From assembly GCA_040755095.1 (NCBI GenBank), contig JBFMBH010000028.1, forward strand, positions 1 to 36,691: a stretch of DNA of 36,691 nt, read 5' to 3'. The notes beneath the pieces were generated by a model, which was not told the DNA's origin, searched no databases, and saw nothing but the letters and a program-made list of their open reading frames with translations. This DNA is from Thermodesulfobacteriota bacterium (lineage in GTDB: Bacteria; Desulfobacterota; Desulfobulbia; Desulfobulbales; JBFMBH01). Both the position numbers and the translations under genes were made by a program. This document shows, one piece after another, positions 1 through 36,200 of the stretch (position 1 is the stretch's first letter; every line of letters starts with the position of its first letter).

Positions 1-909
1 GCGGAAGAGGTCTCTTCCCACCAGGGCGTCGAGATCCTTGTTGGTGGCGGCCACCAGGCGGAAATCGACCCGGATCACCGTCTTGCCGCCGATGGGGCGC
101 ACTTGCCGCTCCTGCAGAACCCGCAGGAACTTCTTCTGGATCTCCAAAGGCAGCTCGCCGATCTCATCCAGGAACAGGGTGCCGCCATCCGCCTCCCGGA
201 CCAGTCCCTCCTGGCTCCGGTCCGCACCGGTGAACGCCCCTTTGACATGGCCGAACAGGATGCTCTCGGCGAGATTGTCCGGCAGGGCGGCGCAATCGAC
301 CACCACCAGCTTGCGGTCCGCCCGGTTGCTCAGGTTGTGGACTGCCCGGGCAAAGAGCTCCTTGCCGGTCCCGGACTCGCCGCAGATGAGCACGTTGGCT
401 TCCGACGGGGCAGCCTTGGCCACCAGGTCGAGACATTGCTGGATCTCCCGGCTGCGCCCGATGATGCTGTCATCCTTGCCGGCCGCGGCAGCGGTTGCAG
501 GCAGCCCCGCGCCCCGTGCCAGGCTCCGGCGATGGTTGACCACATTTTTGCATATCGACAGGATTGTTTGCGGGGACTCGGTTTCCAGGAGATAGTCCCA
601 GACGCCGTCTTCCAGCAGGCGCTCGATGGCACTGGTGCTGTCTTCCTGGCCGAGCACCAGGACGCTGGGGCCAGGGACGGTCTTCCTGATCCGGGCAATG
701 GCCTCCCGGACGTGCAGGTCCGGCAGGCCTTCCCGCAGGAAGACGATGTCGTAGGCGCTGGCGCCGATCCTGTCGAGGCCTTCGCTGGCGCTGAGGGCCA
801 GCTCGGTGGTGAAGCCCTGGCTGGCGGCAACAGGGGAGAAGGTGCCGAAGAACGAGGCGTCGCGGTCGACGACCAGAACCCTGGCAGCAGTGCCGGGATC
901 AGAGGGCAT
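1..909 (-). CDS. Sigma-54-dependent activator with degenerate receiver (partial)
   Basis: Enhancer-binding regulator that would use ATP hydrolysis to open sigma-54 promoters. It runs off the left edge, so the end of the AAA+ domain and the DNA-binding domain are not visible; 303 residues are seen. Residues about 10-125 have the receiver layout. Residues about 145-303 are the AAA+ core, with Walker A GESGTGKE (177-184), the sigma-54 contact loop GAFTGA (224-229) and Walker B LFLDEIGE (245-252). The receiver lacks its chemistry: the phosphoacceptor position in VFLREGLP is Arg59, one of the acidic pair is Arg16 (VVDRD), the Thr/Ser switch is Gly87 and the conserved Lys is Glu109. It is therefore unlikely to be controlled by phosphorylation, while the ATPase looks intact. 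The start is the ATG at 909; its ribosome site is only a G-rich run. It is divergent from the response regulator at 1121. Confidence 0.93.
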   Translation of the reverse strand, partial: MPSDPGTAARVLVVDRDASFFGTFSPVAASQGFTTELALSASEGLDRIGASAYDIVFLREGLPDLHVREAIARIRKTVPGPSVLVLGQEDSTSAIERLLEDGVWDYLLETESPQTILSICKNVVNHRRSLARGAGLPATAAAAGKDDSIIGRSREIQQCLDLVAKAAPSEANVLICGESGTGKELFARAVHNLSNRADRKLVVVDCAALPDNLAESILFGHVKGAFTGADRSQEGLVREADGGTLFLDEIGELPLEIQKKFLRVLQERQVRPIGGKTVIRVDFRLVAATNKDLDALVGRDLFR

Positions 910-1120: not shown

Positions 1121-1729
1121 GTGGAAGAGCTGTCGGTGCTGCTGGTCGAGGACAATCCCCAGGACGCGCAGTTGATCAAGGAATACCTGTCCGAAAGCGA
1201 TGCCGTGCACTTTACCGTCAACGATGTCCCGACCATGGCGGAGGCCATCGCGGCCCTCGACGGCACTGCCTGGGATATCGTTCTTCTGGACCTGAGCCTG
1301 CCGGACTCTACCGGCCTGCAGACGGTGCGCACCCTGATCGGCCGCTTCCCGGCCGTGGTCATCGTGGTGCTCACCGGCCTTACCGACGACCAGGTCGCCA
1401 TCCAGGCGGTCCGCTTCGGGGCCCAGGACTACCTGGAAAAGGGCCTGCTTACCCCCACCCTGCTCAGCCGTGCCATGCGCTACGCCGTGGAGCGCAAGCG
1501 GATTATCCGGCAGCAGGACAGCCTCCTGGCCGATCTGGCCAAGGCTCTGGATGAGATCGAGGTGCTGCAGGGGCTGTTGCCGGTGTGCCGGAACTGCCGG
1601 AGGATTCATAGTGCCGGCGACGAATGGATGACTGTCGAGGCCTTCCGGAGCAAAAGGAGCGGCTCGGACGTCAAGGACGAGATCTGTCCGGACTGCCTGC
1701 GCGACCTCTACGGCCTCGAGACCGCATGA
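1121..1729 (+). CDS. Response regulator with Cys4 C-terminal module
   Basis: Phosphorylatable receiver protein of 202 residues. The receiver is intact: acidic residues in LVEDN near residue 11, phosphoacceptor Asp57 in LLDLSLPDS, Thr85 in VLTG and Lys107 in YLEKG. After a helical linker (about 115-150) there is no DNA-binding domain. Instead comes a short Cys module: GLLPVCRNC (Cys156, Cys159), an EWM..EAF segment, then ICPDCLRDLY (Cys189, Cys192). Two CxxC pairs about 30 residues apart suggest zinc or iron binding, or a thiol switch. The same module is in the proteins at 9246 and 18084. The GTG start at 1121 follows GAGGTGAG. It is divergent from the sigma-54 activator, whose receiver is dead, so this protein could be a partner (inference). 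Confidence 0.93.
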   Translation: MEELSVLLVEDNPQDAQLIKEYLSESDAVHFTVNDVPTMAEAIAALDGTAWDIVLLDLSLPDSTGLQTVRTLIGRFPAVVIVVLTGLTDDQVAIQAVRFGAQDYLEKGLLTPTLLSRAMRYAVERKRIIRQQDSLLADLAKALDEIEVLQGLLPVCRNCRRIHSAGDEWMTVEAFRSKRSGSDVKDEICPDCLRDLYGLETA

Positions 1730-1995: not shown

Positions 1996-3183
1996 CTATT
2001 CGTAATAGTGTGGCGTGCCCAGTTCGGCGGCGCCTGGCCCACCCTTGCGCGGGCTCTTGACGAAGGTATGGCTGCGCACGAACAGGTTGTCGGCGGTCTT
2101 GCCGGTGTTGGGCATGTATGCTTCCACCGTGAAGGTGGCATCGTGGCAGCTGCCGCAGGCATCCTTTGACACTTTCTTGATCTTGCCCTTGCCGGCGTGG
2201 GGTGAGTGGCAGGTGATGCACGACATCTTGGCCTTCTGATAATGGGCCGACTGGATGAAGCCCTGGTATTCCTGGTGATGCTTGGCTTCCTCGTAGACTC
2301 CGCTGGCCTTGGAGATCTCGTCGACCTTGAACATTCCCTTCAGGTCCCCCTGGTATTCTGCGTCAAAGGGGTGTTGCTCCTGGACCCCGGGAATGATGAC
2401 CTCCTCGGGATACCATGTGGTCCAGTCGTCGCCTGGCCTGTGGGTCTCGCCAACCTTGGGGGCCGGGAAGTCCTCGCGTGGGTTGCCCTGGGCCGATTTC
2501 CACCGCTCGTTCTCGAGGCGGATATGGCAGTAGCCGCAAACCTTGGACTGCGCTTGGACGTCCAGGCGGGCCGGGTTGAAGATGTCCATCTCCTTCTTCG
2601 ACTCGACATGGCGGGCCCCGGGGCCATGGCAGGCCTCGCAACCGACCCCCATTTCGACAAAGTCGCTCTTGACGGTCCGGCCGGCCTTTTCGTCATACTC
2701 CAGGATACGGTAGCCGGTGGTATGACAGGTGGCGCACATGCTGTCCCAGTCGTTTTTCTGGCCGTATTTTTCCCACATGAGGCTCGCGCGGTTGAACTGC
2801 ATGTTGAGAAACTGGAGGCCGCCGGACTGCTCGTTCTTCACCAGGTAACGCTGTTTCCAGCGGGAGCCAACCACGTATTGGACATCGTCGAAGGTGTAGG
2901 TCTTGCCCGAGACATTACCGGTGGTCGGGCCGGGGTTGGTGCCGTCGCCGCCCCATTTCTCCACCGCCTCCTTCAGGATGGCGCCTTTTTTCGGCCTGAT
3001 GATCTTGCTGTGCCACGATTCCTTCCAGCTTTCGTATTCCTCGGCATGGCACGTCCGGCAGGATTCCGAGCCGGCGAACTCCTCGGCGTGGCCTGCCTTT
3101 TTTTCCGACCCAGCCTCTCCGGTGCTGGTCACCACCAGGAGGCAACCGACAACTGCAATGGTCGATAAACCGGCTCGTTTCAT
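1996..3183 (-). CDS. Six-heme c-type cytochrome (periplasmic)
   Basis: Exported multiheme electron carrier of 395 residues. An N-terminal signal peptide (about 1-24) precedes six CxxCH heme motifs: CRTCH (42-46), CATCH (150-154), CEACH (182-186), CGYCH (216-220), CITCH (322-326) and CGSCH (343-347). The spacing and the ESCRTCHAEEYESW start resemble cytochrome c554 / c-prime type multiheme proteins; the exact electron partners cannot be read. Frequent extra histidines (for example HHQEY near 302) can serve as distal heme ligands. The ATG at 3183 is preceded by AAGGAGCTGACC, a good ribosome site. The open frame continues far upstream, but that part is not coding-like. The phosphoribosyltransferase gene ends 53 bp upstream on the same strand, so the two may be co-transcribed. 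Confidence 0.93.
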   Translation of the reverse strand: MKRAGLSTIAVVGCLLVVTSTGEAGSEKKAGHAEEFAGSESCRTCHAEEYESWKESWHSKIIRPKKGAILKEAVEKWGGDGTNPGPTTGNVSGKTYTFDDVQYVVGSRWKQRYLVKNEQSGGLQFLNMQFNRASLMWEKYGQKNDWDSMCATCHTTGYRILEYDEKAGRTVKSDFVEMGVGCEACHGPGARHVESKKEMDIFNPARLDVQAQSKVCGYCHIRLENERWKSAQGNPREDFPAPKVGETHRPGDDWTTWYPEEVIIPGVQEQHPFDAEYQGDLKGMFKVDEISKASGVYEEAKHHQEYQGFIQSAHYQKAKMSCITCHSPHAGKGKIKKVSKDACGSCHDATFTVEAYMPNTGKTADNLFVRSHTFVKSPRKGGPGAAELGTPHYYE

Positions 3184-3236
3184 GGTCAGCTCCTTGTTGA
3201 TGATTGTTGGGATCTCCTTCGACATTCGCTGCCTTC

Positions 3237-3902
3237 TCAGTTCAACCACTGATCCGCCTCGGCAAGAAGCGCGGTCATGGTCAGGTCGTCCGGCAGGGTG
3301 TAGTCCTCGTACCAGGCCCCCAGGCCTTCGGCCAGGTGCGGGCTGACGAGCGTGACGATCTCGTCGGCCTCGGCCTCCAGGGCTTCCTGCGCCTGCGGCG
3401 TGATCGCCGGCAAGGCCATGGTCAGCCGCCGGGGCCTTCCCCACCTGAGCGCCGTGGCCGCGGCACGCATGGTGGTGAGCGTGGCGGTGCCGTCGTCGGC
3501 CAGGATGACCCACTTGTCCAGGATGCCGGGCGCCGGCCGGGCCGGGGGGCCGGTTCTCGCCGGCCAGACCGCCCAGCGCTGCACCTTCCTCATCTCTTCC
3601 CCGATGTCCTGGCTGGCCGCAAGGGCGATGGCGCCGAAGGCCTGCTGGGCAAGCCTGGGCCGCTCCAGCATCTGGACCAGAAAGGGCTCCAGGCGTGCCC
3701 CCAGGGCCTGCGCCACCTCGTGCGCGACCAGCAGGCCGCCGCGGGACAGAGCCACCACCAGACTGTCTCGGGCCGGGGCCTGGGGCCGCAGGACCTGGGC
3801 CAGCCGCGCTCCGACCTCCTTGCGATCCTTGAAGAGCATGATTTTCGCTCCGTCGATCCCGGCGCCTCGCCGGACGACGCATCTGTTCTCCTCCTCGTGC
3901 AT
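3237..3902 (-). CDS. Phosphoribosyltransferase-family protein
   Basis: Predicted cytoplasmic protein of 221 residues with the type I phosphoribosyltransferase fold (the COG1926-like group). The PRPP loop is VILADDGTATLTTMRAA (132-148), close to the family pattern VDDGIATG.T but with Leu in place of the Gly after the second Thr. The early SRGGLLVAHEVA segment (53-64) matches the family's pyrophosphate-binding loop region. The substrate base is not known for this group. The ATG at 3902 has GGGAGGTC upstream; a second ATG at 3840 (MLFKDR) is where some relatives begin. It lies directly upstream of the six-heme cytochrome gene, an unusual pairing that gives no clear clue to function. Confidence 0.82.
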   Translation of the reverse strand: MHEEENRCVVRRGAGIDGAKIMLFKDRKEVGARLAQVLRPQAPARDSLVVALSRGGLLVAHEVAQALGARLEPFLVQMLERPRLAQQAFGAIALAASQDIGEEMRKVQRWAVWPARTGPPARPAPGILDKWVILADDGTATLTTMRAAATALRWGRPRRLTMALPAITPQAQEALEAEADEIVTLVSPHLAEGLGAWYEDYTLPDDLTMTALLAEADQWLN

Positions 3903-3982
3903 AGTCCTGACCTCCCGCTGTCTTGCCGAGCAAGACACATGCCAGGCCGCGGGCATGGCCGCCAGGGCTCCCCTGGGCCAGT

Positions 3983-4053
3983 GAGCTGCCATGCGCGGGG
4001 CGCACCCAACGGGGTGCAACGCCGGAAGTCCTCTCTGGTGGCGGTTGTTTCTT
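3983..4053 (-). repeat. Dispersed repeat R1, solo copy
   Basis: Reverse-orientation copy of the R1 family. Read on the minus strand it contains AAGAAACAACCGCCACC, then GGACTTCCGGCG, a hairpin of the CACCC/GGGTG type and GCGCCCCGCGCATGGCAG. Other copies are at 10092, 15869-16010, 21885-22050, 22396, 36011 and 36138. Confidence 0.8.
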
Positions 4054-4170: not shown

Positions 4171-4205
4171 TCCTGGATGGCAGGATGTCGTCCTGGCTGG
4201 CAGGA
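4171..4205. promoter_or_regulatory. TCCTG/CAGGA array, four half-sites phased every 10 bp
   Basis: TCCTG (4171-4175), CAGGA (4181-4185), TCCTG (4191-4195) and CAGGA (4201-4205) are separated by exactly five bases each, followed by TGCTG at 4211. This makes two tandem 15-bp dyads on one helical face. It lies about 180 bp before the CheB-CheR kinase start and about 270 bp before the divergent phosphoribosyltransferase. It is either a protein-binding operator array or two RNA hairpins; I cannot tell which. Confidence 0.55.
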
Positions 4206-4387
4206 TTGCCTGCTGACCCGACAACGGCGCTGCTCTTCCGCCTTGCCGAACATCCGGGGCGTCTGGTATGAACAACCAGGAGCAAGGAGATCTTCCCCCC
4301 CCATTAGCCTGCTGCAACTGCAGGCTCTGGCTGCACCATTCCGGGGATGGGCCAACAGACAAGACTGCGGCTGCCGGAGGATCCAGG

Positions 4388-7300
4388 ATGGAGCGCAAGG
4401 AGAAGAAGGGTGGCAGGACGACGGCGGGGGGGGAGAAGGTCGCCCGGAAGGGAAGCGGCCCTCCCCCGCCGGAGGAGGTTGCCCCGGCGGCCTCCCCACA
4501 CCTGGTGCCGGTGGTGGGGGTCGGTGCCTCGGCCGGTGGCATCGAGGCGATCAGCCGGCTCCTGGAGGCCATGCCTCCGTCCCGCGGCTTTGCCATCGTT
4601 CTGGTCGTCCACCGGGACCCCCGATACCAGGGAGGGCTGGAGGAGCTGTTCGCCAAACGTACCGGGCTTACGGTCGTCCAGGCCGAGCACCGGTTGGCGG
4701 TGGAGCCGGACACGGTCTACGTCATTCCGCCCAACGCCTATTTGGCGCTGCAAGGCAACAGGTTCCGGGTTGACAAGCCGGTCCTCGTCCGCGGCACGCG
4801 GCTGCCCATCGACCACTTCTTCCATTCCCTGGGCGAGGAGCGCCGGGAGCAGGCCGTGGCCGTCATCCTCACCGGCACGGCATCGGACGGCGCCCTGGGC
4901 CTCAAGACGGTCAAGGAGCTGGGCGGCATGGTCATGGCCCAGGATCCGGCCACCGCCCTCCACGACTCCATGCCCAGGAGCGCCATCGCCACCGGTCTTG
5001 TGGACCATGTCCTGGCGGTGGAAGAGATGCCGGCGGCCATCGTCGACTACCTCCGGCATCCCCTGCTCAACCGCGTCGAGGCGACCCGGGAGCTGTCTGT
5101 GCAAGAGAAGGCCGCCTTGAACGAGGTGCTCTCTCTTTTGCGCTTCCGAACCAAGCACGATTTCCGCGGCTACAAGAAGACCACCCTGTTTCGCAGGATC
5201 CTCCGGCGGCTCAGCATCAACCGGCTGGAGGGCTTGCAGGAATACCTCGATTTCTTGCGCACCACCCCCCAGGAGATCGATCTTCTGAAAAAGGACCTCC
5301 TCATCAACGTCACCAGCTGGTTCCGGGACCAGGAGGCGTGGCAGCAGCTCGAGGCCGAGGTCATCCCCCGGCTTTTTGAGCGGCCGGAAAAGGAAGAGCC
5401 GGTGCGGGCCTGGATCGCCGGCTGCGCCACCGGCGAGGAGGCATACTCCCTGGCCATCCTTTTCCACGAGTACCTCGAAGGTGCCGGCCAGAGCCGGGTG
5501 GTGCAGATCTTCGCCACCGACGTGGACCAGGAGGCCCTGGAGATTGCCCGCCAGGGATCCTATTCCCGGAACATCGAGAACGAGGTCGACGCCAAAAGGC
5601 TCAGCCGCTTCTTCGACCAGCAGGAGGGGGCCTTTCGGGTCAAGAAGCGGCTGCGGGAATCGGTGATCTTCGCGCTGCACAATCTGATCGCTGATCCGCC
5701 GTTCTCGCGGCTCGATCTCATCTGCTGCCGGAATCTGCTCATCTACCTGGACACCGAGGTGCAACAGCGCATCCTGCCGCTGTTCCATTTCGCCCTGCGG
5801 GAAGGAGGCTTTCTCTTCCTTGGCCCCAGCGAGACCACCTCCCAGGCCCAGCACCTGTTCAGGACCGTGTCGAAGAAATGGCGGCTCTACAAGAGGATCG
5901 GCAGCGCGATCGCGGTCAATGCCCTGCAGCTGCCCTCGCCGCGGGAGGAGACCGGGCAGCTCTTCGGCCAGGAGCTTCAGACGCCGGCGGTCGCCGGCAC
6001 CTTCAAGCTTGCCGAGACCGCCCGCCGCGTCCTTCTGGAGCGCTATGTGCCGGCGTCGGTGCTCATCGACCGCAAGGGAAGGGCACTCTATTTTCATGGC
6101 AGCCATGAAAAGTACCTGGTCCAGCCGGCGGGGGAACCGACGACCAATATCCTGGACATGGCCAGAGAGGGGCTGAAGACCAGGCTGCGCGGCGCGGTGC
6201 AGCAGGCGGCCGACTCCGAGCAGGAGATCGTGGCCGCCGGCGTCCGCCTCCGTCTCGGAGACCGCTACCAGCCGGTGAGGATCACGGTGCTGCCCTTCCA
6301 GCGGCCGCATCAGGCCGAGGGACTGCTCCTGGTGACCTTCGAGGACGAGGAGCGGCCGCAAGCCGACATCGAGGGGCGGCAGCCCTGCGAGGGCGACGTG
6401 GAGTCGGTGGTCAAGCAGCTGGAAGAGGAGCTGCACGCCACCATCGGGGACCTGGAGACCTCCAACGAGGAGCTGCGCAGCTCCAACGAGGAGATCCTGT
6501 CCATGAACGAGGAGCTCCAGTCATCGAACGAGGAGCTGGAGACCTCGAAGGAGGAGCTGCAGTCCATCAACGAGGAGCTCACCACCCTCAACGCCCAGCT
6601 GGCCGGGAAGATCCAGGATCTGGAAGAGGCCCATGCCGATCTGGACAACCTCATGCGCTCCACCCAGATCGCCTGCCTCTTTCTGGATGAGGAGCTGCGG
6701 ATCAAGCGCTTCACCGCGGCTGCGGCGACCATCTTCAGCCTGTTGCCCACCGACTGCAGCCGGCCGTTGGCCGATCTCGACTACAAGCGCATCGACCCGG
6801 ATCTTCTCGTCGCCTGCCGGCGGGTGCTGGACACGCTGGCAACCGAGGAGAAGGAGGTGTCGGGGGATGGCGGCATGTGGTACCTGCGCCGGATCCTGCC
6901 GTACCGGGACCAGGAGCAGCGCATCCGCGGGGTGGTGGTGACCTTCGCCAACGTCAGCCAGCTCAAGGCCGCGGAAGAAAGGCTTGAGGCCAGCCAGCTG
7001 GCCTACCGGCGGCTGGTGGACAACAACCCCGACGGCATCTGCCAGATCGACCAGGCCGGTGCCATCCGCACCGCCAACCCGGCCCTGGCCAGGATGCTGG
7101 GCTACCCGGCCGATGAGCTGGTGGGCCGGCCCCTCGTCGCGTTCCTGGCGCCGGATTCGCAACAGGAGGAGGCCGCCGGTCAGCTCACGGATGCTCTCCG
7201 GAAGGGGACGCCGCCGGTCTGCTGCCTCCAGGTGCTCAGGAAGGATGGCGGCCACGGGATGGTGGAGCTCTACGCCCTTTCGACCGGCGACAGTGGGAAC

Positions 7301-9226
7301 AAGGACGGCGGCCTCTGGGTCCATCTGCGCGACATCAGCAGCCGCCAGCAGCTGGAGGATGTCATCTCCCGGAGCCGCCTGCGGGTCTATCAGACGCTGG
7401 ATGCCATCCCGGCCCTGATTGCCTCCATCGACCGGGACGAGCGCTATCTCTTCGCCAGCCGTGGCCATGAGGACTATACCGGCAAGGCGCCCCAGGAGAT
7501 GGCCGGCGCCACACTCCGGGAGGCGCTGGACGACGAAGCCTACCGGGTGCTGCAGCCCCGGGTCGCCGCCGCCCTCGCCGGCGAGCGGCAGGACTTCGAG
7601 CTCGAGCTGTGCCACCGACAGGACGGCCCGCGCCTCCATCGCGCCGTACTGGTGCCAGACGTTGCCTGCGGCCAGGCGGCGTGCGGCTGCTTTTTTCTGG
7701 CGGTGGATATCACCGGGGACAAAGAGACCCTTTCCCGGCTGGAAGAGCGGGATCGGCTCCTGGAGGCGATCATGACCTCGATTCCGGAAGGGATTGCGGT
7801 CGCGGAGGCCCCGGACATGCGCATTCGGATGATCAGCGCCCATGGCGTGCGCATGACCGGCCAGGAGGAAGCGTTTCTCAAGGACGCCAGCGTACTGCAG
7901 CAGGTGGCGCACTGGCGGCTCTTCCAGGAGGACGGGAAGACACCCCTGGCCATCGAAAGGATGCCCCTGGCCCGGGCCATCACCGCCGGCGAGACCACCG
8001 ACAACCAGGCCCTGGTCATGAAGACCCCGGATGGCCGGGACATCCCGATCCTGTGCAGCGCGGCCCCGCTGCGGGACGCGGCCGGCGGCATCTCCGGCGG
8101 CATTCTCGCCTGGCGGGAGGTGACCGAGCTGAAGAGGGAGGTGGAACGGCTTACCCAGCTGGCCTTCATCCTGGAGCAGACGCCGCATATGGTCGGGTGC
8201 GCGACCCCGGACGGCCAGATCGTCTACCTCAACCAGGCGGCGCGGCGGATGGCGGGCATCGCGCCGGATGCCCCGCTGGCGGGCGAGACAGTGGACAGAC
8301 ACCAGCCGCCATGGGTGCAGCGGCTCTTGAGCGAGGAGGGGATCCCGGCCGCGATCCGTGATGGCGTCTGGCAGGGCGAGACCGCGGTGCTCGCTGCCGA
8401 CGGTCGCGAGATCCCCTGCGCCCAGCTGGTCATCGCCCGGAAGGATCCGCAGGGCGAGGTGCGCTACCTGTCCACTGTTCTCCACGACCTGTCCGCGATC
8501 CTCGACGAGAAGAAGCGCCTGGAGAGCATGGTGAGCCGGCTGGAGAAGAGCAACGAGGATCTTGGCGAGCTGGGGTATGTCGTCTCCCACGATCTCAAGG
8601 AGCCGCTGCGCTCCATCGCCGGCTACCTGGACCTTTACGTCCGCCGCTACGGTGAGGGGCTGGAGCCCAAGGCCCGGCAGTTCCTGGATTTCGCCCGCCA
8701 GGGCGCGGCCCGGCTCGAGCGGCTGATCGACGACCTCCTGCAGCTCACCAGGCTCCGCCGCACCGACCTGGCGCCGGCTTCGGTGGACATGAATCTGCTT
8801 CTGGACGAGGTGCTGAGCCAGCTTTCGGCCCAGATCGACGAAGCCGGGGCCGAGGTCACCTGCGACGAGCTGCTGCCGGTGACCGGCATTGCCTCCCAGC
8901 TCAGCCTGGTGCTCCAGAATCTGGTGGCCAATGGCATCAAGTTCGCCGCCCCTGGCCGCAAGCCGGCGATCCACATCGGCTGCCAGCGTAACGACCAGGG
9001 CGTGGTCACAAGCGTCCGGGACAACGGTATCGGCATCGACCCCAAGCACCGCCAGCGGATCTTTCAGGTTTTCCAGCGGCTGCACCGGCAGGAGGACTAT
9101 CCTGGCACCGGCATCGGACTGGCGCTGTGCCGGAGGATCGTCCAGAACCACGGCGGCGAGATCTGGCTCGAATCAACCCCCGGGGAGGGGGCCACCTTCT
9201 TCTTTTCCATCCCGGATCCGGCATGA
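4388..9226 (+). CDS. CheB-CheR-PAS-histidine kinase fusion
   Basis: Very large signalling protein of 1612 residues. CheB methylesterase comes first (about 39-228) with the triad Ser48 (GASAGG), His75 (VVHRDP) and Asp167 (TASDGALG). CheR methyltransferase follows (about 235-510) with the SAM loop GCATGEEAYS near 345 and CCRNLLIYLD near 447. A coiled coil of repeated NEEL heptads spans about 690-750, then about five PAS-like segments, then a histidine kinase: H-box VSHDLKEPLR with His1401, N-box near 1513, and GTGIGLALC. No transmembrane segment is evident, so it is probably cytoplasmic. No receiver domain is fused; the convergent response regulator at 9246 is the nearest candidate partner. There are no cheA, cheW or receptor genes nearby. 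I chose ATG 4388 because GGAGGATCCAGG precedes it. Confidence 0.95.
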   Translation: MERKEKKGGRTTAGGEKVARKGSGPPPPEEVAPAASPHLVPVVGVGASAGGIEAISRLLEAMPPSRGFAIVLVVHRDPRYQGGLEELFAKRTGLTVVQAEHRLAVEPDTVYVIPPNAYLALQGNRFRVDKPVLVRGTRLPIDHFFHSLGEERREQAVAVILTGTASDGALGLKTVKELGGMVMAQDPATALHDSMPRSAIATGLVDHVLAVEEMPAAIVDYLRHPLLNRVEATRELSVQEKAALNEVLSLLRFRTKHDFRGYKKTTLFRRILRRLSINRLEGLQEYLDFLRTTPQEIDLLKKDLLINVTSWFRDQEAWQQLEAEVIPRLFERPEKEEPVRAWIAGCATGEEAYSLAILFHEYLEGAGQSRVVQIFATDVDQEALEIARQGSYSRNIENEVDAKRLSRFFDQQEGAFRVKKRLRESVIFALHNLIADPPFSRLDLICCRNLLIYLDTEVQQRILPLFHFALREGGFLFLGPSETTSQAQHLFRTVSKKWRLYKRIGSAIAVNALQLPSPREETGQLFGQELQTPAVAGTFKLAETARRVLLERYVPASVLIDRKGRALYFHGSHEKYLVQPAGEPTTNILDMAREGLKTRLRGAVQQAADSEQEIVAAGVRLRLGDRYQPVRITVLPFQRPHQAEGLLLVTFEDEERPQADIEGRQPCEGDVESVVKQLEEELHATIGDLETSNEELRSSNEEILSMNEELQSSNEELETSKEELQSINEELTTLNAQLAGKIQDLEEAHADLDNLMRSTQIACLFLDEELRIKRFTAAAATIFSLLPTDCSRPLADLDYKRIDPDLLVACRRVLDTLATEEKEVSGDGGMWYLRRILPYRDQEQRIRGVVVTFANVSQLKAAEERLEASQLAYRRLVDNNPDGICQIDQAGAIRTANPALARMLGYPADELVGRPLVAFLAPDSQQEEAAGQLTDALRKGTPPVCCLQVLRKDGGHGMVELYALSTGDSGNKDGGLWVHLRDISSRQQLEDVISRSRLRVYQTLDAIPALIASIDRDERYLFASRGHEDYTGKAPQEMAGATLREALDDEAYRVLQPRVAAALAGERQDFELELCHRQDGPRLHRAVLVPDVACGQAACGCFFLAVDITGDKETLSRLEERDRLLEAIMTSIPEGIAVAEAPDMRIRMISAHGVRMTGQEEAFLKDASVLQQVAHWRLFQEDGKTPLAIERMPLARAITAGETTDNQALVMKTPDGRDIPILCSAAPLRDAAGGISGGILAWREVTELKREVERLTQLAFILEQTPHMVGCATPDGQIVYLNQAARRMAGIAPDAPLAGETVDRHQPPWVQRLLSEEGIPAAIRDGVWQGETAVLAADGREIPCAQLVIARKDPQGEVRYLSTVLHDLSAILDEKKRLESMVSRLEKSNEDLGELGYVVSHDLKEPLRSIAGYLDLYVRRYGEGLEPKARQFLDFARQGAARLERLIDDLLQLTRLRRTDLAPASVDMNLLLDEVLSQLSAQIDEAGAEVTCDELLPVTGIASQLSLVLQNLVANGIKFAAPGRKPAIHIGCQRNDQGVVTSVRDNGIGIDPKHRQRIFQVFQRLHRQEDYPGTGIGLALCRRIVQNHGGEIWLESTPGEGATFFFSIPDPA

Positions 9227-9245: not shown

Positions 9246-9902
9246 CTACCGTCTGCGGTGTCCTGCCGGCGGATCGCCCTTCTTCTCGCCCTCGGCCTGG
9301 CGAGCGGCCATCAGCTCCGGGTACAGCTCGAGGGCGCACTCCTTGCAGATGCCGTGGGAGAAATCCACCCCGGCATGGCGGCGGAAGTACGCCTCCAGCT
9401 GCACCCACAGGCCGTCGTCCTGGCGGATCTTTTTGCAGGAGGCGCAGATGGGGATGAGCCCCTTGAGGGTCCGCAGCTGATCGAGGGCCTCGTGCAGGCT
9501 CTGCACGAGCTTGGCCCGTTCGATGGCGTAGCGGATCGCCCGCACCAGGACGGACGGGCTGATCTTGCCCTTCACCAGGTAGTCCTGCGCCCCCTGCTGC
9601 ACCGCCCGCAGGGCCAGCTCCAGGTCGTCCGCCCCGGTCATCACGATGATCGGCAGGTCCCCGGCCTCCTTCTTGGCCCGCAGGAAGGTGTCGAGGCCGC
9701 GGCTGTCCGGCAGGCCGAGATCCAGCAGCACCACGTCCACCCCCCCTTGCTGCAGGCGGTCGAGGCCGGCGGCCAGGGTGGGCGTGTGCTCCATCTCGTA
9801 GACCGGCTGGCTCTCGTCCGCCAACATCTCCCGCAACAGCAGGAAATCGGCGTAGTTGTCCTCCACAGACAGCAGGTGGATGTCGGGCTGGGGCTCGGAC
9901 AT
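9246..9902 (-). CDS. Response regulator with Cys4 C-terminal module
   Basis: Receiver protein of 218 residues with an intact phosphorylation site: SVEDN near residue 15, Asp61 in LLDLGLPDS, Thr89 in VMTG and Lys111 in YLVKG. After a helical linker the C-terminus carries the Cys module, LIPICASCKKI (Cys153, Cys156), a GLWVQLEAY segment and FSHGICKECALELYPE (Cys186, Cys189). There is no DNA-binding or enzymatic output domain. It is convergent with the CheB-CheR kinase, 19 bp apart, which makes it the best local candidate to receive phosphate from His1401 (inference). ATG 9902 follows AGGAGGAGCACGA, a strong ribosome site. A phased TCCTG/CAGGA array begins 16 bp upstream of the start codon. Confidence 0.94.
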   Translation of the reverse strand: MSEPQPDIHLLSVEDNYADFLLLREMLADESQPVYEMEHTPTLAAGLDRLQQGGVDVVLLDLGLPDSRGLDTFLRAKKEAGDLPIIVMTGADDLELALRAVQQGAQDYLVKGKISPSVLVRAIRYAIERAKLVQSLHEALDQLRTLKGLIPICASCKKIRQDDGLWVQLEAYFRRHAGVDFSHGICKECALELYPELMAARQAEGEKKGDPPAGHRRR

Positions 9903-9917: not shown

Positions 9918-9952
9918 TCCTTTGGTGCAGGACCGCATCCTGTGCAACAGGA
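9918..9952. promoter_or_regulatory. TCCTG/CAGGA array upstream of response regulator
   Basis: TCCTT (9918-9922), CAGGA (9928-9932), TCCTG (9938-9942) and CAGGA (9948-9952) are each separated by five bases. This is the same 10-bp phasing as at 4171 and 27051. It sits at about -16 to -50 from the response regulator start codon, so a bound protein could overlap the promoter. Confidence 0.55.
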
Positions 9953-10047
9953 CGGCCTGCGGTTGGCCCTGGATAGTCGGTGGAGGCGACAGCCGCTGAG
10001 ATGGGTTGCGTTGTAGTTGGCCGCGCCCTGCGCATCATTCCATGGCG

Positions 10048-10243
10048 CCCATGGAGCCATGGGACCTATAGGACCTATAGGACCTATGGGAAGCCACCCC
10101 GGCGGCCTTCCGGCGTTTCACCCAGTTGGCTGCGCTGGCAGCCCACAGATCCCATAGCTCCCATGATTCCCATAGCTCCCATGACCCATGGGACCCATGG
10201 GACTTATTGGCAAGCCACCCCGGCGGACTTCCGGCGTTTTCAC
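10048..10243 (+). repeat. Composite B-R1-B-R1 repeat
   Basis: Element B (10048-10091, ending in repeated GGACCTATA), then R1 (10092-10143, with GGCGGCCTTCCGGCGTTTCA), then B (10144-10210), then a shorter R1 (10212-10243). The second B is an exact 9-bp series: CCCATAGCT, CCCATGATT, CCCATAGCT, CCCATGACC, CATGGGACC, CATGGGACT. The two R1 left ends are 120 bp apart. Peptides from these frames (SHGSHG, RTYRTYG) are not proteins. Confidence 0.8.
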
Positions 10244-10405
10244 CGGCTATGACATCCAACCAGTTGTTTCTGCACTTTTGGTGCCACTCCTGGTCACCCG
10301 GCGTGGCATGGAATTTGAATCGTTTCTTCTTCGAGAACGCTTCCTGCAACGTTCCGTGGGCATGCGCCTCCCCATGATCATTCCATCCCGGAAGGAGGAG
10401 TCACG

Positions 10406-10801
10406 ATGACCGGCATCGGCGAGCTTTATCATCATGATGACTGGAAGAAGGAAAAACATGTGCCGGTGATCGAGGCGCCGGCCGTCGTGGGGCCTGATGT
10501 GCCCTTCGAGGTGTCGGTGCAGGTGGGCAAGGACATCGCCCATCCCAATACCACCGGCCACCACATCCGCTGGATCCAGGTCTTCTTTCTGCCGGAAGGC
10601 GGCAAGTTTGCCTATCAGGTGGGGGAGTTTGCCTTCACGGCCCATGGCGAATCCACGGAAGGCGCGGATACCGGGCCGGTGCACACCGATCATCGGGTGC
10701 GCTTTGCCCTGACCCTCAAGGCCTCCGGCACCCTGTTTGCCACCTCCTATTGCAATATCCACGGCCTGTGGGAGAGCAGCACGGCAATCGCCATCCGATG
10801 A
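10406..10801 (+). CDS. Superoxide reductase, neelaredoxin type (class II)
   Basis: Cytoplasmic enzyme of 131 residues that reduces superoxide to hydrogen peroxide without making oxygen, typical of anaerobes. The iron-site motifs are all present: EKHVP (Glu16, Lys17, His18), HPNTTGHH (His46 and His52) and CNIHG (Cys116, His119). These supply the four-histidine, one-cysteine centre plus the Glu-Lys pair. The N-terminal desulforedoxin domain of class I enzymes is absent. ATG 10406 follows GGAAGGAGGAGTCACG. The DsrC-like gene starts 50 bp downstream on the same strand and is probably co-transcribed. Peroxide removal would have to come from elsewhere, since no peroxidase is seen in the window. Confidence 0.95.
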   Translation: MTGIGELYHHDDWKKEKHVPVIEAPAVVGPDVPFEVSVQVGKDIAHPNTTGHHIRWIQVFFLPEGGKFAYQVGEFAFTAHGESTEGADTGPVHTDHRVRFALTLKASGTLFATSYCNIHGLWESSTAIAIR

Positions 10802-15868: not shown

Positions 15869-16010
15869 GGTTGGGTGCGCCCCGCACATGGCAGCCCACA
15901 GGTCCCATGACTCCCATGAGTCCTTTGGCTCCCATGGACTTATGGGACCTACAGGACCTATAGGACTTATGGGAGGCCACCAGAGCGGACTTCCGGCGCG
16001 GGCATGGCAA
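15869..16010 (+). repeat. Composite repeat: R1 right half - B - R1 left half
   Basis: The right part of R1 (15869-15898, GGGTGCGCCCCGCACATGGC), then a B element (15899-15973) built of TCCCATGAC-type 9-mers turning into GGACCTATA-type 9-mers, then the left part of R1 (15975-16010, GCGGACTTCCGGCG). The element runs into the 3' end of gpmA, whose stop codon lies inside B. Confidence 0.78.
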
Positions 16011-16770
16011 CCTGCTCGATGGTCGAGTTTCCTTGGCTGGCCTGGGCCGCCACCGCTGCGGCGGCCTTGGCCACCGCCTCCGGATCCCCCAGGTAGAAGT
16101 GGCGGCAGGGCTGCAGGCTTTCGTCCAGCTCATAGACGAGGGGAATGCCGGTGGGGATGTTGAGCTGGACGATGTCCTGGTCGGACACCCGGTCGAGGTG
16201 CTTGACCAGGGCCCGCAGGCTGTTGCCATGGGCGGCGATCAGGACCCGCTGGCCATCCCGGATGGCCGGGGCGATCTTCTCGGTCCACAACGGCATGAAA
16301 CGAGCCACCGTGTCCTGAAGCGACTCGGTGCGGGGGATGGCGTCCCCCAGCTCCCGGTAGCGGGGATCGTCCAGCGCCAGCCGCGGGTCGTCATCGCTTA
16401 AGCCCGGCGGCCGGGTGGTGTAGCTGCGCCGCCAGGTGAGCACCTGCTCGTCACCGTGCCGGGCCGCCACCTCGGCCTTGTTCAGCCCCTGCAGGGCCCC
16501 GTAGTGCCGCTCGTTGAGCCGCCAGCTTTTGACCACCGGCAGCCACATGAGATCCATCTCCTCCAGGGCCAGCCACAGCGTCCTGATCGCCCGCCGCAGC
16601 ACCGAGGTGAAGGCGATATCGAAGCGGAAGCCCTCGGACTTCAGGATCCGGCCGGCCTGCTGGGCCTCGGCGATGCCCTGGGCCGACAGATCGACATCGG
16701 TCCAGCCGGTGAAGCGGTTGTCGAGGTTCCAGGTGCTCTGGCCGTGGCGGAGCAGGACAAGGGTGGGCAT
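15967..16770 (-). CDS. gpmA: 2,3-bisphosphoglycerate-dependent phosphoglycerate mutase
   Basis: Glycolytic and gluconeogenic enzyme that interconverts 3- and 2-phosphoglycerate, 267 residues. The phosphohistidine is His9 in [10 protein letters not shown]. The diagnostic [16 protein letters not shown] (near 86-101) and the second histidine in [10 protein letters not shown] are present, as is the [12 protein letters not shown] signature near the end. The length is slightly above the usual 250 because the last 14 or so residues ([13 protein letters not shown]) are translated from a dispersed repeat, in which the stop codon also lies. ATG 16770 follows GAGGGAG. It is downstream of the Fpg-like gene on the same strand (39-bp gap). 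Confidence 0.97.
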
Positions 16771-17721: not shown

Positions 17722-17769
17722 GTATGGTCGCGGGCCGTGGCGGGGCCACCATGTCCGATGGGGGTGCCC

Positions 17770-17958
17770 GGAACCGTTGCGGTGCCAACCGGCCCACCGG
17801 GCGGCATATCCCCCACCGGCCATTCCCCATCGCGTGGGTCGTCCCGCCGCCCGCACCGCCCGTGCGGTCCCCGGGCCGGGTAGGGGCGACGCATGCGTCG
17901 CCCTGGCGGGCGGAACCGTTGCGGTGCCAACCGGCCCACCGGGCGGCGTATCCCCACC
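17770..17958 (+). repeat. 47-48-bp direct repeat pair, 142 bp apart
   Basis: Copy 1 (17770-17817) and copy 2 (17912-17958) both begin GGAACCGTTGCGGTGCC and end CCCCACC, differing by one substitution and one C. The 20-bp palindrome (17884-17903, after TAGG) lies between them. Confidence 0.8.
17884..17903. repeat. Perfect 20-bp palindrome
   Basis: GGGCGACGCA followed by its reverse complement and preceded by TAGG; identical to the core of the palindrome at 1926-1947. Confidence 0.78.
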
Positions 17959-18083
17959 ACCACCGCGCCCGGATCCGGATCATACCGAATGCTCCCGCGG
18001 CTGGAATGAGAATTGCTGTGTCTCTGGGCCAGACAGCCGCCGGACGGCAGGGTTGGTGCCGGGGCGCGCAAGGAGGACGGTGC

Positions 18084-22485: not shown

Positions 22486-22521
22486 TCCTGCAGGAGTGGA
22501 TGCCCGTCCTGCCGGACAGGA
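22486..22521. promoter_or_regulatory. TCCTG/CAGGA sites upstream of zinc-ribbon gene
   Basis: TCCTGCAGGA (22486-22495) and the dyad TCCTG-CCGGA-CAGGA (22507-22521). The second fits the N5 spacing seen at the other arrays. It is about 255 bp before the next gene, further than usual for an operator. Confidence 0.4.
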
Positions 22522-22777
22522 TGAAGAAGCCGGGCAAGCGGGGATGCCACTGCGCCTCCAACCCCGCCAGGCAAGAAGTCGGCCCGGGGTCCGTGTATGC
22601 AGCCCTGCCCGGAACCAAGCAGATCCCGTGCCGGCCGGTCCGTCCGGAGGCCGGCCGGCCGCGGCGCCGCGCCCCCGGCCCCGGGGGCGGCCATGGAATG
22701 GAACTTGCTGCGCCAACGGCAGGCCCCGCTGGCGGTCAGCCATCCGGGGCACGGCCACCACGACGAGGAGGAATGCC

Positions 22778-23455
22778 ATGATCAGTGCTTGGCTGCACGA
22801 CGTGCCGGCAGGGGAAATCGATCCGGAGACCCGCCGGAAGATGATCGCCGAGGCTGCCTATTTCCGGGCCCAGAAGGCGGGGGCGGCCAGCGACCCCCTG
22901 GACAACTGGCTGGCGGCGGAGCAGGAGATCGATCGCCAGCTGGCCGAGCAGGGCAGGGGCGCCCAGGAGGAGGAGCTGGCCGCCTTCAAGAGGCTGCGCC
23001 AGGAGCTTGCGGCGATCCTGGCCGCGGCCAAGGGCCGGCTCGAAGCCGACACCTTCAGCCAGGCCCTGGACAAGGCGAAGGCCGAGGTGAGCCGGCTGGA
23101 GGGGTTCACTGCCGAGTCGGTCAGCAGGGCGGCGGAGGCCGTTAGAAAGGAGTTTGCCCGCAGCATCGAGAAGATGGACAGCGGCTGGCACTCCGTCTCC
23201 ATCCGAACCGTGGACTTCTTCAGCGTCTGGAGCCGCCGCAGCGCCCAGTTCCTCACCCAGGCCGGCGCGGCTGCGGACGCCTGGCTGCACGAGATGCGGG
23301 AGAAGGTGGCACCCCACACCTTTCACAGCGGCGACATCACCTCGGGCGGCCACTTTGTCTGCACCTCCTGCGGCCACCTTGTCCATCTGGAGAAGGCTGG
23401 CCACCTGCCCCGCTGCCCGGTCTGCGACCACTCCACCTTCCGGCTGGAACCCTGA
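22778..23455 (+). CDS. DUF2934 / zinc-ribbon protein
   Basis: Cytoplasmic protein of 225 residues and unknown function. Residues about 18-53 match the DUF2934 pattern (IAEAAYFRAQ...DPLDNWLAAEQEI). Residues about 60-135 are helical and probably coiled coil. Residues about 185-222 form a zinc ribbon, Cys195/Cys198 (CTSC) and Cys213/Cys216 (CPVC), similar to the zinc-ribbon containing family formerly called DUF1451. The join of the two families in one chain is notable. ATG 22778 follows GAGGAGGAATGCC. It stands alone: rtcB is divergent more than 900 bp away and pncB is convergent 29 bp downstream. Confidence 0.82.
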   Translation: MISAWLHDVPAGEIDPETRRKMIAEAAYFRAQKAGAASDPLDNWLAAEQEIDRQLAEQGRGAQEEELAAFKRLRQELAAILAAAKGRLEADTFSQALDKAKAEVSRLEGFTAESVSRAAEAVRKEFARSIEKMDSGWHSVSIRTVDFFSVWSRRSAQFLTQAGAAADAWLHEMREKVAPHTFHSGDITSGGHFVCTSCGHLVHLEKAGHLPRCPVCDHSTFRLEP

Positions 23456-26214: not shown

Positions 26215-26760
26215 TCATGCCTCTTCCAGGGCAGCGACTACGGTCTGGTATTTTTCGTGAATCATGCCCTGGTCGAACCGAAGGAAGGCCTCCAGGAGCT
26301 GCCGGTCCTCCTCGGGGCTGAGACAGGCCCGGGCGGCAGGGAAGAACTGCCGGTCCTCCTTGTCGATGTGGGCGGGATAAAGATCGACCAGGGTCTGGAG
26401 CCCGGCCGTAATCTCGGCCAGGGCCGCCGGGTCGCCCTGCCGGTGCCGGGCATTGGCCGCGACGAGCTGCCCGTTCACCGCGCGGCTGCGGGCATGCTCC
26501 TGGACCAGCTCCGCCATGAGCTGGCGGTCCGGCTCGGTCAGGGGCCGGCTCCGCAGCTCCTGGAAGAGGATGTCTTCCTCTTTGCCGTGGTGGGTCCGGT
26601 CGGCATAGGTGTGGATGAAATCCGTCACCAGGTCCAGCCGCCGGGGATCGATCCCCTGGCCGGCCTTGGCGTCTCGGAGCATGCGGCCCATGGCTGCAAT
26701 GGTCCGTTCGATCAGCCGATGCTCGATCATCAGCAGTCCCCGTGCCTGCACGCTCGTCAC
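26215..26760 (-). CDS. Hemerythrin-domain protein
   Basis: Four-helix protein of about 181 residues that would bind a di-iron centre and oxygen, nitric oxide or iron. The ligand set is visible: His14 (MIEHRLIE), His50, His58-x3-Glu62 (HHGKEE), His89 (QEHARSR) and His131-x3-Glu135 (AHIDKED). The start is uncertain. GTG 26760 gives the short N-terminus usual for the family (MTSVQARGLLMIEHRLIE); ATG 26817 would add 19 residues read through a dispersed repeat, and ATG 26730 would leave only two residues before the first ligand. None has a strong ribosome site. It lies directly upstream of pncA on the same strand, possibly linking NAD recycling to oxygen or iron state (inference). Confidence 0.87.
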   Translation of the reverse strand: MTSVQARGLLMIEHRLIERTIAAMGRMLRDAKAGQGIDPRRLDLVTDFIHTYADRTHHGKEEDILFQELRSRPLTEPDRQLMAELVQEHARSRAVNGQLVAANARHRQGDPAALAEITAGLQTLVDLYPAHIDKEDRQFFPAARACLSPEEDRQLLEAFLRFDQGMIHEKYQTVVAALEEA

Positions 26761-26850: not shown

Positions 26851-27050
26851 GTGCGGCCCGACGCTTCATTCTCCGGCTCGCCTTTCGCGGTACAGGCCGG
26901 GGACGGTCGGCTGGTGCGCTGCCCGCATCGGCTGCCGCCGGTGGGCTTCTTGCGTCCACCCTGGCAACAAGAATGCCAGGGCCGTTGGCCACCTGTGCTC
27001 CGGCAGGGACGATCCCGGACTTGGCCAGCGCCGCGCCCCGTCTCGGACGA

Positions 27051-27075
27051 CAGGACTTCCTCCTGGCGCACAGGA
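27051..27075. promoter_or_regulatory. CAGGA-TCCTG-CAGGA array upstream of Cus operon
   Basis: CAGGA (27051-27055), TCCTG (27061-27065) and CAGGA (27071-27075), each five bases apart. It is about 190 bp before the first Cus gene and about 290 bp before the divergent hemerythrin gene. Confidence 0.5.
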
Positions 27076-27265
27076 CACCGGGGAAAGGCCCCGCCGCCCC
27101 CGGCAAGGGGCCGGTCGTCCGGCGGGCCGGTGCCTGGCCGGCGGACGCCAAGGCATTCCGGCCACCTGTTCTGGTACGAGTGTTGCTGCTGGAAGGGAGC
27201 AGGTGAGCAAACGGAGGAGTCCAGCCGGTCCATCACAGATGCCCCAAAAAGGATCAGAGCCGGCC

Positions 27266-28663
27266 ATGATGGCCTTTCCCGGCAACGGCGATATTCGACA
27301 TCCTTTGTTCGACGTTCGATTCTCGCTTCTCTTTCTGGCCCTGTGTCTGGGCATCACCCCCGTGGCAACGGCCGGGTTGGCCGGCCAGGACGGCGACCGG
27401 CGGCTCTTTGAAGAAAGAATGAGCAGTGGACCGACCCCTGCCGAGCTGGCCAGCTACGCTTACGCCGCCAACCCCGCCATCGCCTCGGCCCGTGCCGCCT
27501 GGCGGGCCGCGGTCGAGCAGTACCGCGTGACGACCGGGCTTCCCGATCCCCAGGTCATGGGGACCTGGTATCCGGATCCGATCGAGACCCGTCTGGGGCC
27601 GCAGGACTGGAACATCACCGTGACGCAGATGTTTCCGTTTCCCGGCACCCTGTCCAAGGCCGGCGAGGTGGTGCGGGCGGATGTCCGGGCGGCCCAGCTT
27701 GAGCTTGACAAGGCGGTGCGCGACGTGGTCGCGCAGATCCGGGAATCGGCCAGCGAGCTTGCCTACATTCGCGGAGCCAAGAAGGCGCTCGACCAGAGCC
27801 GGGACCTTCTGGATCAGCTTCGGCGCGTGGCTGAAACCGCGTATGCCGGCGACCGGGCCACCCTCACCGACGTGGCCAAGGCCCAGTCCCAGTCGGCCCA
27901 GCTCATGTACGACCGGCTCCTGCTTGACGAGCTGGAATCGACCGAGATCGCCCGACTGAACGTCCTCTTGGACCGCGCGCCCGATGCGCCTGTCGGCCCG
28001 GTGGCGATGGAGCGCGCGCAGCTTGCCTTCTCTTTTGCGGAGATCAGCGACGTGGCCCAGATGAACCGCCAGGAGATCGCCATTGCCGGCGCCATGGTCG
28101 AAAAGGCGCGGGCCAAGGCAGGGCTGGCCTGGTACCAGTCTTTGCCCGAATTCAGGGTTGGCCTCTTCTACGGCGGCATCGGCGAGCCGGATGTCGCCGT
28201 GCGGCCGGCCGAGGCCGGACGCGATGCGGTGGGCATACAGATGGGCGTGAGCATCCCTCTTTGGCTGGGCAAGTCGGCAGGCCGCATCGAGCAGGCCGAG
28301 GCGGAGCAGGCCAAGGCCGAGGCGATGCGCCGCCTGCAGGTCAACGACACCAGGGCGATGATCAGCGCGGCCTGGTTTCGTTTGCAGAACGCCGGCCGTC
28401 TCGTCCGGCTCTACCAGGATCAGTTGATCCCGCAGGCGGCCCGATCCATGGAGCTGGCCGAAACCTGGTACCGGCAGGGCCAGGGGAGCTTCTCTGACTA
28501 CGTGGAGACCCACGGCGTCTGGATCAACTTCCAACTGGCGCTTCTGCGGGCTCAAGCTGACCACGAAAAGTATCTGGCCCGGCTCGAGCGCCTGGCCGGC
28601 CGCAGCCTGACCTGGCGCGAGAGCGGCGACCAGGAGCCGGCAAGACCGGAGGCGGCGCCGTGA
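27266..28663 (+). CDS. TolC-family outer membrane factor (Cus type)
   Basis: Outer membrane channel of 465 residues that would form the exit duct of the Cu/Ag efflux pump. The mature part has the TolC pattern: AYAANPAIASARAAWRAAVEQY near 64-85, LPDPQV, the subfamily motif FPFPGTLSKAGEVV, long coiled-coil helices and MGVSIPLWLGKSAGRI. The N-terminal signal peptide is odd: MMAFPGNGDIRHPLFDVRF is encoded by a dispersed repeat (27297-27330), followed by a normal hydrophobic core and ATA cleavage region. No Cys lipidation site is obvious. ATG 27266 has a weak ribosome site (AAGGATC); a start at 27419 would remove the signal. It is the first gene of a five-gene operon; its stop overlaps the next start by 4 bp. 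Confidence 0.9.
   Translation: MMAFPGNGDIRHPLFDVRFSLLFLALCLGITPVATAGLAGQDGDRRLFEERMSSGPTPAELASYAYAANPAIASARAAWRAAVEQYRVTTGLPDPQVMGTWYPDPIETRLGPQDWNITVTQMFPFPGTLSKAGEVVRADVRAAQLELDKAVRDVVAQIRESASELAYIRGAKKALDQSRDLLDQLRRVAETAYAGDRATLTDVAKAQSQSAQLMYDRLLLDELESTEIARLNVLLDRAPDAPVGPVAMERAQLAFSFAEISDVAQMNRQEIAIAGAMVEKARAKAGLAWYQSLPEFRVGLFYGGIGEPDVAVRPAEAGRDAVGIQMGVSIPLWLGKSAGRIEQAEAEQAKAEAMRRLQVNDTRAMISAAWFRLQNAGRLVRLYQDQLIPQAARSMELAETWYRQGQGSFSDYVETHGVWINFQLALLRAQADHEKYLARLERLAGRSLTWRESGDQEPARPEAAP
27297..27330 (+). repeat. Dispersed TTCGAC repeat inside signal peptide
   Basis: Matches 25503-25536 at 29 of 34 bases (GACATnCnTTGTTCGACnTTCGAT...CGCTTCT). In frame it encodes residues 11-22 of the TolC-family protein. 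Confidence 0.75.
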
Positions 28664-30264: not shown

Positions 30265-30270
30265 GGACGC

Positions 30271-31626: not shown

Positions 31627-31680
31627 GAAAGGCCACGATCGAGCCCCGAATTCGTCTGTACCCGTCCTGGACGACAACCC

Positions 31681-36010: not shown

Positions 36011-36200
36011 AAGAAACAACGGCCACCAGAGCGGGCTTCCGGGCGGTTCATTCATTTTGGCGCCCTGGGTATGGCAATCTACAGGTCCCATGGCTCCCAT
36101 GGCCCATGGGACGTATAGGACCTATAGGACCTATGGGCGGCCACCATGGCGAACTTCCGGCGTTTCACCCATTCGGGTGCGCCCCGCGCATGGCAACTCT
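36011..36200 (+). repeat. Composite R1-B-R1 repeat
   Basis: R1 (36011-36081, AAGAAACAACGGCCACCAGA start), B (36082-36137: TCCCATGGC twice, a CCATGGG centre, then GGACCTATA-type 9-mers), and R1 (36138-36200, with the hairpin CACCC-ATTC-GGGTG and GCGCCCCGCGCATGGCAA). The GGCCACC left ends of the two R1 units are 118 bp apart. Confidence 0.8.

Follow-up and report, generated by a model that had tools for sequence, protein, structure and literature searches.

The closest described systems are sigma-54 regulators that bind short palindromes. In Myxococcus xanthus, the NtrC-like regulator NmpR controls oxygen-related genes including hemerythrin, and it binds GCGCA-N5-TGCGC sites that occur in pairs upstream of sigma-54 promoters. 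The paired sites are 5 bp apart at pilR, and usually 14–15 bp apart (PMC11841059). The sigma-54 regulators of Desulfovibrio vulgaris use palindromes with 4–6-bp arms and 3–8-bp spacers, also upstream of sigma-54 promoters, and many of the sigma-54 response regulators of this species control their adjacent operon; the target of DVU0679 is an sRNA gene that lies immediately behind the regulator's own (PMC3333781, PMC4641369). An atypical receiver has been reported for the FlbD-like DVU1063, and the DVU3305 general stress three-component system is an example of a sigma-54 response regulator tied to stress genes in a sulfate reducer (PMC3333781).

The window analysed here is a stretch of 36,691 nucleotides from a Thermodesulfobacteriota bacterium (contig JBFMBH010000028.1). 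An earlier note on this DNA suggested that a dyad, TCCTG-N5-CAGGA, repeated in several intergenic regions, is a shared operator for one regulator. The analysis supports this and sharpens it: judging from sequence, the arrays are most probably the upstream activating sequences (UAS, or enhancers) of one NtrC-type sigma-54 activator (EBP), most likely the one encoded at 1–909 (-) or a member of its close clade. The sites in the window are as follows.

935–959, no strand: degenerate dyad between the starts of the EBP gene and P0003; the first dyad (935–949, ACCTG...CAGGC) has two mismatches
4171–4205, no strand: putative UAS array of two tandem dyads, both exact TCCTG-N5-CAGGA, with centres 20 bp apart
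9918–9952, no strand: putative UAS array, tandem dyads with 1 mismatch in 20 (first half-site TCCTT)
22486–22521, no strand: exact dyad at 22507–22521 and, 21 bp apart, a half-preserved dyad at 22486 (two mismatches)
27041–27075, no strand: putative UAS array, exact dyad at 27061–27075 and an upstream dyad with two mismatches (TCTCG at 27041)

There are thus five exact dyads in the window (4171–4185, 4191–4205, 9938–9952, 22507–22521 and 27061–27075). Dinucleotide shuffles give a mean of 0.07 and a maximum of 1, and none of 100 shuffles reaches five. The description of 4171–4205 as four alternating half-sites spaced five bases apart is exact, and the dyad at 22507–22521 is exact too. The same arrangement is present at 9918–9952, only inexactly, and at 27051–27075 three half-sites are exact while the fourth, at 27041, has the two mismatches listed. 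The site at 935–959 had been called a one-mismatch version and in fact has two. The match at 16823 does have N4 spacing, as claimed, and it is the sole N4 match in the window. All five exact dyads are intergenic by our own gene calls (genes and starts come from a home-made codon-based caller), so the claim that the exact N5 dyad lies solely between genes is true of the window; genome-wide it holds for 12 of 16.

The whole genome (4.52 Mb in 255 contigs) contains these 16 exact dyads, compared with 8 for the reversed control. The earlier note had called for a search of the genome and its relatives against gene starts, and coding DNA is not evenly hit: the 12 intergenic dyads can be set against a non-coding share of 12% in a 1.03 Mb sample (binomial p=1e-8). 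In the same sample, the other spacings give few intergenic matches (N4 0, N6 0, N3 3 and N7 1). Ten intergenic site loci adjoin a gene start, and this 36.7-kb contig contains four of them. When the long array is searched at up to 3 mismatches, there are six in the genome versus one control match. At up to 2 mismatches in 20 positions there are five, and of the 258 genomes that form the comparison set, all from this order (taken as Desulfobulbales), 17 have arrays; the control array pattern at this threshold has no match across the 258. Tandem arrays with a period of 19–22 bp also occur in other genera of the order, and 28 of the 31 inspected arrays of relatives are intergenic. The pooled motif is (G/T)TCCTG-Y-C-N-G-R-CAGGA(C/A), with conservation absent beyond the dyad. 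In the sampled genome the top-scoring dyad pair (contig C115, L031 9144–9179) is flanked by genes that appear to be convergent, and no promoter was seen there. This tells against the enhancer reading, and it is possible that the pair is a terminator or an unannotated RNA gene.

The genes of interest in the window are the proposed regulator, its divergent partner and the putative targets.

1–909, minus strand: proposed regulator, a sigma-54 activator truncated at the contig end, of which the N-terminal 303 aa are present
1121–1729, plus strand: P0003, a receiver of about 203 aa with a Cys-rich tail, divergent from the EBP gene
1996–3225, minus strand: multihaem c-type cytochrome gene, next after the phosphoribosyltransferase gene and in the same direction
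3237–3902, minus strand: phosphoribosyltransferase-domain gene, first behind the 3944 promoter
4268–9226, plus strand: CheB-CheR-PAS-histidine kinase gene with its start at 4268 or 4388, divergent from the phosphoribosyltransferase gene
9246–9902, minus strand: P0002, receiver with a Cys-rich tail, paralog of P0003, start codon 16 bp from the 9918–9952 array
10406–10801, plus strand: desulfoferrodoxin (superoxide reductase) gene
22778–23455, plus strand: DUF2934 / DUF1451 zinc-ribbon gene
26215–26751, minus strand: hemerythrin-domain gene, divergent from the Cus operon across the 27041–27075 array
27266–35223, plus strand: Cus-type heavy-metal efflux operon (two OEP genes, CusB-like, CusA/CzcA)

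The EBP part in the window consists of a degenerate receiver and an AAA+ domain with the Walker A motif GESGTGKE and a GAFTGA loop. A C-terminal EBP piece of 173 aa, which contains a Fis-type HTH, is found at the end of contig C34 (L337 11576–12097, minus strand). This contig and the window appear to be adjacent, so that the facing halves would be one EBP gene with about eight residues unseen between them, and it is by this inferred join that the window EBP gains its HTH. The C34 piece, with the HTH ...ALSRSRLYALLKKYHIP, has its best match in L310, and HTH_8 is detected in the ortholog P0004. In the AAA+ tree, the window EBP stands beside L310 of G230, whose genome has an array matching at 20/20 positions, while 13 other EBPs from the genome of the window fall elsewhere. 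The AAA+ domain of the window EBP is 62–66% identical to those of EBPs in G165, G166 and G072 that lie no more than about 4 kb from an array; named relatives are from Desulfobulbaceae and Desulfopila, on which the assignment of the order is based.

Clear orthologs (at least 437 bits with the G166 protein as query) are found in 19 genomes, or 20 counting its own. Arrays are present in 11–13 of these 20 versus 7 of the 238 others (p=6e-10 to 2e-12, values inflated by shared ancestry). The lower count refers to arrays with up to 2 mismatches, and a relaxed pattern adds G110 and perhaps G154. The G154 match was rejected as an array, being one long inverted repeat that is more terminator-like, and the statistics are for this reason given both with and without it. 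In genus g50, four of 15 genomes are ortholog-positive, and the three that have arrays all belong to these four (p=0.009). An array was undetected in seven to nine ortholog genomes. About seven array genomes are without a clear ortholog, and some of these hold more diverged members of the clade.

The linkage is also direct. Tandem dyads in a relaxed form (GTCYTG-N5-CARGAC) lie immediately 3' of the EBP gene in L297, L298, L299, L310, L312, L313, L314, L287 and L322, and 5' of it in L307 and L309. When all 5-mer dyads with spacers of 0–12 were compared in an unbiased test, TCCTG with spacer 5 tied for first place, with 13 of 19 EBP loci; CAGGA-N11-TCCTG, with which it tied, was set aside as resembling coding chance matches. 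A first ortholog scan, which gave mostly distant EBPs, found no exact dyad adjoining orthologs of P0001. In L297–L299, L310, L312–L314 and L322 the arrays begin 10–120 bp past the EBP stop, and the next gene follows 150–500 bp on; an unannotated small RNA could be transcribed behind the EBP genes of these loci.

The genome encodes RpoN and about 25 EBPs, and a paralog could be the one that binds. The EBPs on C1 (one gene from the dyad at C1:9145) and on C178 were rejected as regulator, being outside the array-linked clade or a poor match. Those on C215 and C54 belong to the broad clade or stand close to it, and their HTHs are similar. It is unlikely, in our view, that one of these two is the regulator or that several paralogs share the sites. 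G239 has 8 arrays yet only diverged clade members, and arrays also lie at the 3' ends of the distant members L312–L314 and L287, both of which would fit such a reading. Array genomes, however, carry orthologs of the window EBP, and not the other EBPs alone. The window EBP with its C34 piece has the helix SRSRLY, as do the array-linked EBPs, whereas C215 has SRARFY and C54 has SRTRIF. The window EBP is also situated in the window that is richest in sites.

Control by the EBP at 1–909 (-) calls for sigma-54 promoters, and the window contains the following candidates.

3929–3944, minus strand: putative sigma-54 promoter TGGCATGTGTCTTGCT, 227 bp downstream of the 4171 array
10304–10319, plus strand: weak sigma-54-like site TGGCATGGAATTTGAA before the desulfoferrodoxin gene, 13.1 bits, with an imperfect -12 element; the promoter adjoining the 9918–9952 array
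22694–22709, plus strand: sigma-54-like site TGGAATGGAACTTGCT, 13.0 bits, which would serve the 22507 dyad
26978 and 26821, minus strand: sigma-54-like sites before the hemerythrin gene
27172–27187, plus strand: putative sigma-54 promoter TGGTACGAGTGTTGCT, 17.3 bits, 97 bp downstream of the 27041–27075 array

The first of these, TGGCATGTGTCTTGCT, belongs to a set of 12 such exact matches in the genome, where the control gives 0. A dyad TCTTG-N5-CAAGA at 3921–3935 overlaps the -12 element of this promoter, 3944 (-), and is either due to chance or a promoter-proximal site. On C108, two near-dyads are found 96 bp upstream of TGGCACGCGGCTTGCT. The scoring matrix is an approximation of the published consensus, and several thresholds were inspected, all of which are reported. 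In the sampled genome, a -24/-12 site scoring at least 12 is present in 7 of 10 dyad-bearing gene-start intergenic regions versus 3 of 197 in unbiased contigs (p=5e-9). With regions of at least 300 bp only and at least 13 bits, the figures are 6 of 9 versus 2 of 67 (p=1e-5). Among relatives (at least 11 bits), 17 of 25 array regions have such a site versus 20 of 110 other regions (p=2.5e-6), and 14 of the 25 arrays have the best -24 element 50–170 bp downstream and correctly oriented, where 5.1 would be expected at random (p=2e-5). Upstream activating sequences are dyad-symmetric sites, as a rule at least two to a promoter and in helical phase, as seen here, in a genome that encodes RpoN and EBPs, and have a -24/-12 promoter downstream, usually within about 80–200 bp; most arrays have one, though not all.

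The sites could instead be the operator of a sigma-54-independent regulator, a dimeric repressor or activator, with the sigma-54 association being secondary. The start codon of P0002, only 16 bp from the 9918–9952 array, would suit such an operator, as would the array regions of relatives that are without any -24/-12 site: a recognisable sigma-54 promoter was not found at the L282 desulfoferrodoxin gene, L277, L029, L030, the L025 ClpB gene and part of G239. Both the promoter association and the 50–170 bp spacing are significant, however, and the arrays are directly linked to the EBP genes, which together make this reading improbable. The alternative in the earlier note, RNA hairpins, is very improbable and finds no support, whether the arrays are taken as small RNAs or as leader elements. 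While the arms of each dyad could pair over 5 bp around a loop of 5 nt, changes in a single arm across 34 arrays break a pair in 42 cases and lead to G-U in 13, and none is compensated on both arms. Most arrays are upstream of the promoter and therefore outside the transcript, and the window has no Rfam match. Other interspersed repeats exist in the window, but that the arrays stem from a dispersed repeat of the REP or MITE-like kind, intergenic by chance, has next to no probability, because the flanks of the half-sites are unconserved; spacers also vary among copies and the distance from array to promoter is maintained.

Among those other repeats, one interspersed repeat has 9-bp-phased blocks (TCCCATAGC..., ACCTATAGG...) followed by CACC...GACTTCCGGCGTTTCACCC, and is found at 10030–10240, 15889–16018 and 36072–36182. 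One copy is located between the 9918 array and the desulfoferrodoxin gene, and the end of the repeat reappears in reverse complement at 3983, 21979 and 22397. The repeat looks like a REP or MITE-like family. A perfect 20-bp palindrome, GGGCGACGCATGCGTCGCCC, occurs at 1927–1946 and 17884–17903, with a variant at 1812. A 45-bp direct repeat (17769–17813 and 17911–17955, 98% identical, 142 bp apart) precedes a receiver/kinase gene, for which there is also a sigma-54-like site at 18002 (+).

For activation by the EBP at 1–909 (-), each TCCTG-N5-CAGGA dyad would bind an EBP dimer through the Fis-type HTH. A spacing of 19–22 bp, or two helical turns, would place two dimers on the same face of the DNA, where they could assemble into an AAA+ ring. 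By DNA looping, the ring would then remodel sigma-54 RNA polymerase at the -24/-12 promoter, with array and promoter typically 60–160 bp apart, and up to about 350 bp in the sampled genome. The phospho-acceptor Asp is missing from the EBP receiver (Arg is found in P0001, L276 and L274, and Asn in L287), and therefore control may come from another input. Such an input would perhaps be delivered by P0003, which retains D at the phospho-acceptor position. The EBP–P0003 pair is kept in nearly all ortholog loci, with 30–51% identity, and that P0003 gates the EBP is a guess.

What this activator may control is indicated by the genes next to the arrays. The 9918–9952 array could serve the desulfoferrodoxin gene and/or P0002, and the CheB-CheR-PAS-histidine kinase gene is a possible second target of the 4171 array. 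The earlier note would have counted arrays absent upstream of orthologs against a shared operator; the desulfoferrodoxin ortholog in G114 (L282), 61% identical over the full length to that of the window, carries an array upstream, as the window gene does, and the two belong to different genera. For the hemerythrin and phosphoribosyltransferase pairs, the likeness between window and relatives is at family level only. Elsewhere in the sampled genome, arrays are linked to ClpB, a multicopper oxidase and a DUF72 fragment. In relatives they are linked to desulfoferrodoxin, PRC-barrel (three times), BON, SH3 (twice), Ku and hemerythrin, as well as to a Cu-type P-ATPase, glutamate synthase, 2-oxoacid:ferredoxin oxidoreductase and ferredoxin. 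The common theme of these targets would be oxygen, metal and envelope stress. We infer from the DNA and protein comparisons that the EBP binds and activates at these sites, responds to a signal, and has a role in a metal, oxygen and envelope stress regulon; most likely it switches on metal, oxygen-defence and envelope genes in many Desulfobulbus relatives. More tentatively, there is a possible order-wide general stress response that relies on sigma-54 and not on RpoS or ECF. In this case an EBP with an unphosphorylatable receiver, gated by a divergent receiver/Cys-rich partner (possibly redox- or metal-sensing), would drive the genes for superoxide reductase, hemerythrin, metal efflux, PRC-barrel, BON, SH3, Ku and ClpB.

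In this way a sigma-54 activator that is conserved but has no name can be given a DNA target and a candidate regulon, in an order, made up of sulfate reducers and their relatives, where regulatory annotation is sparse. Site, regulator and partner are all sufficiently defined to be tested jointly, and if the targets are representative, they would amount to a stress regulon built on sigma-54.

A literature text search for the motif string gave no match, the TCCTG half-site is not printed in the main texts of PMC3333781 and PMC4641369, and neither it nor the regulon turned up in the main texts of the literature searched. The type of site is already known, because the NmpR and D. vulgaris sites share its layout. 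As with NmpR, there is a 5-bp dyad with a 5-bp spacer, there are two sites per promoter, and hemerythrin is among the putative targets; unlike NmpR, the half-site sequence is another one, the bacteria are different and the targets are mostly others. NmpR also has a kinase phosphorelay, whereas the EBP described here has a receiver without the acceptor Asp, which is atypical as in DVU1063. The DVU3305 system differs in that it targets UspA-type and transport operons and pairs with a Lon-type response regulator, none of which was seen here. The layout of DVU0679, on the other hand, recalls the arrays at the 3' end of the EBP genes. In comparison with these systems the mechanism is familiar, and the regulon appears to be new.
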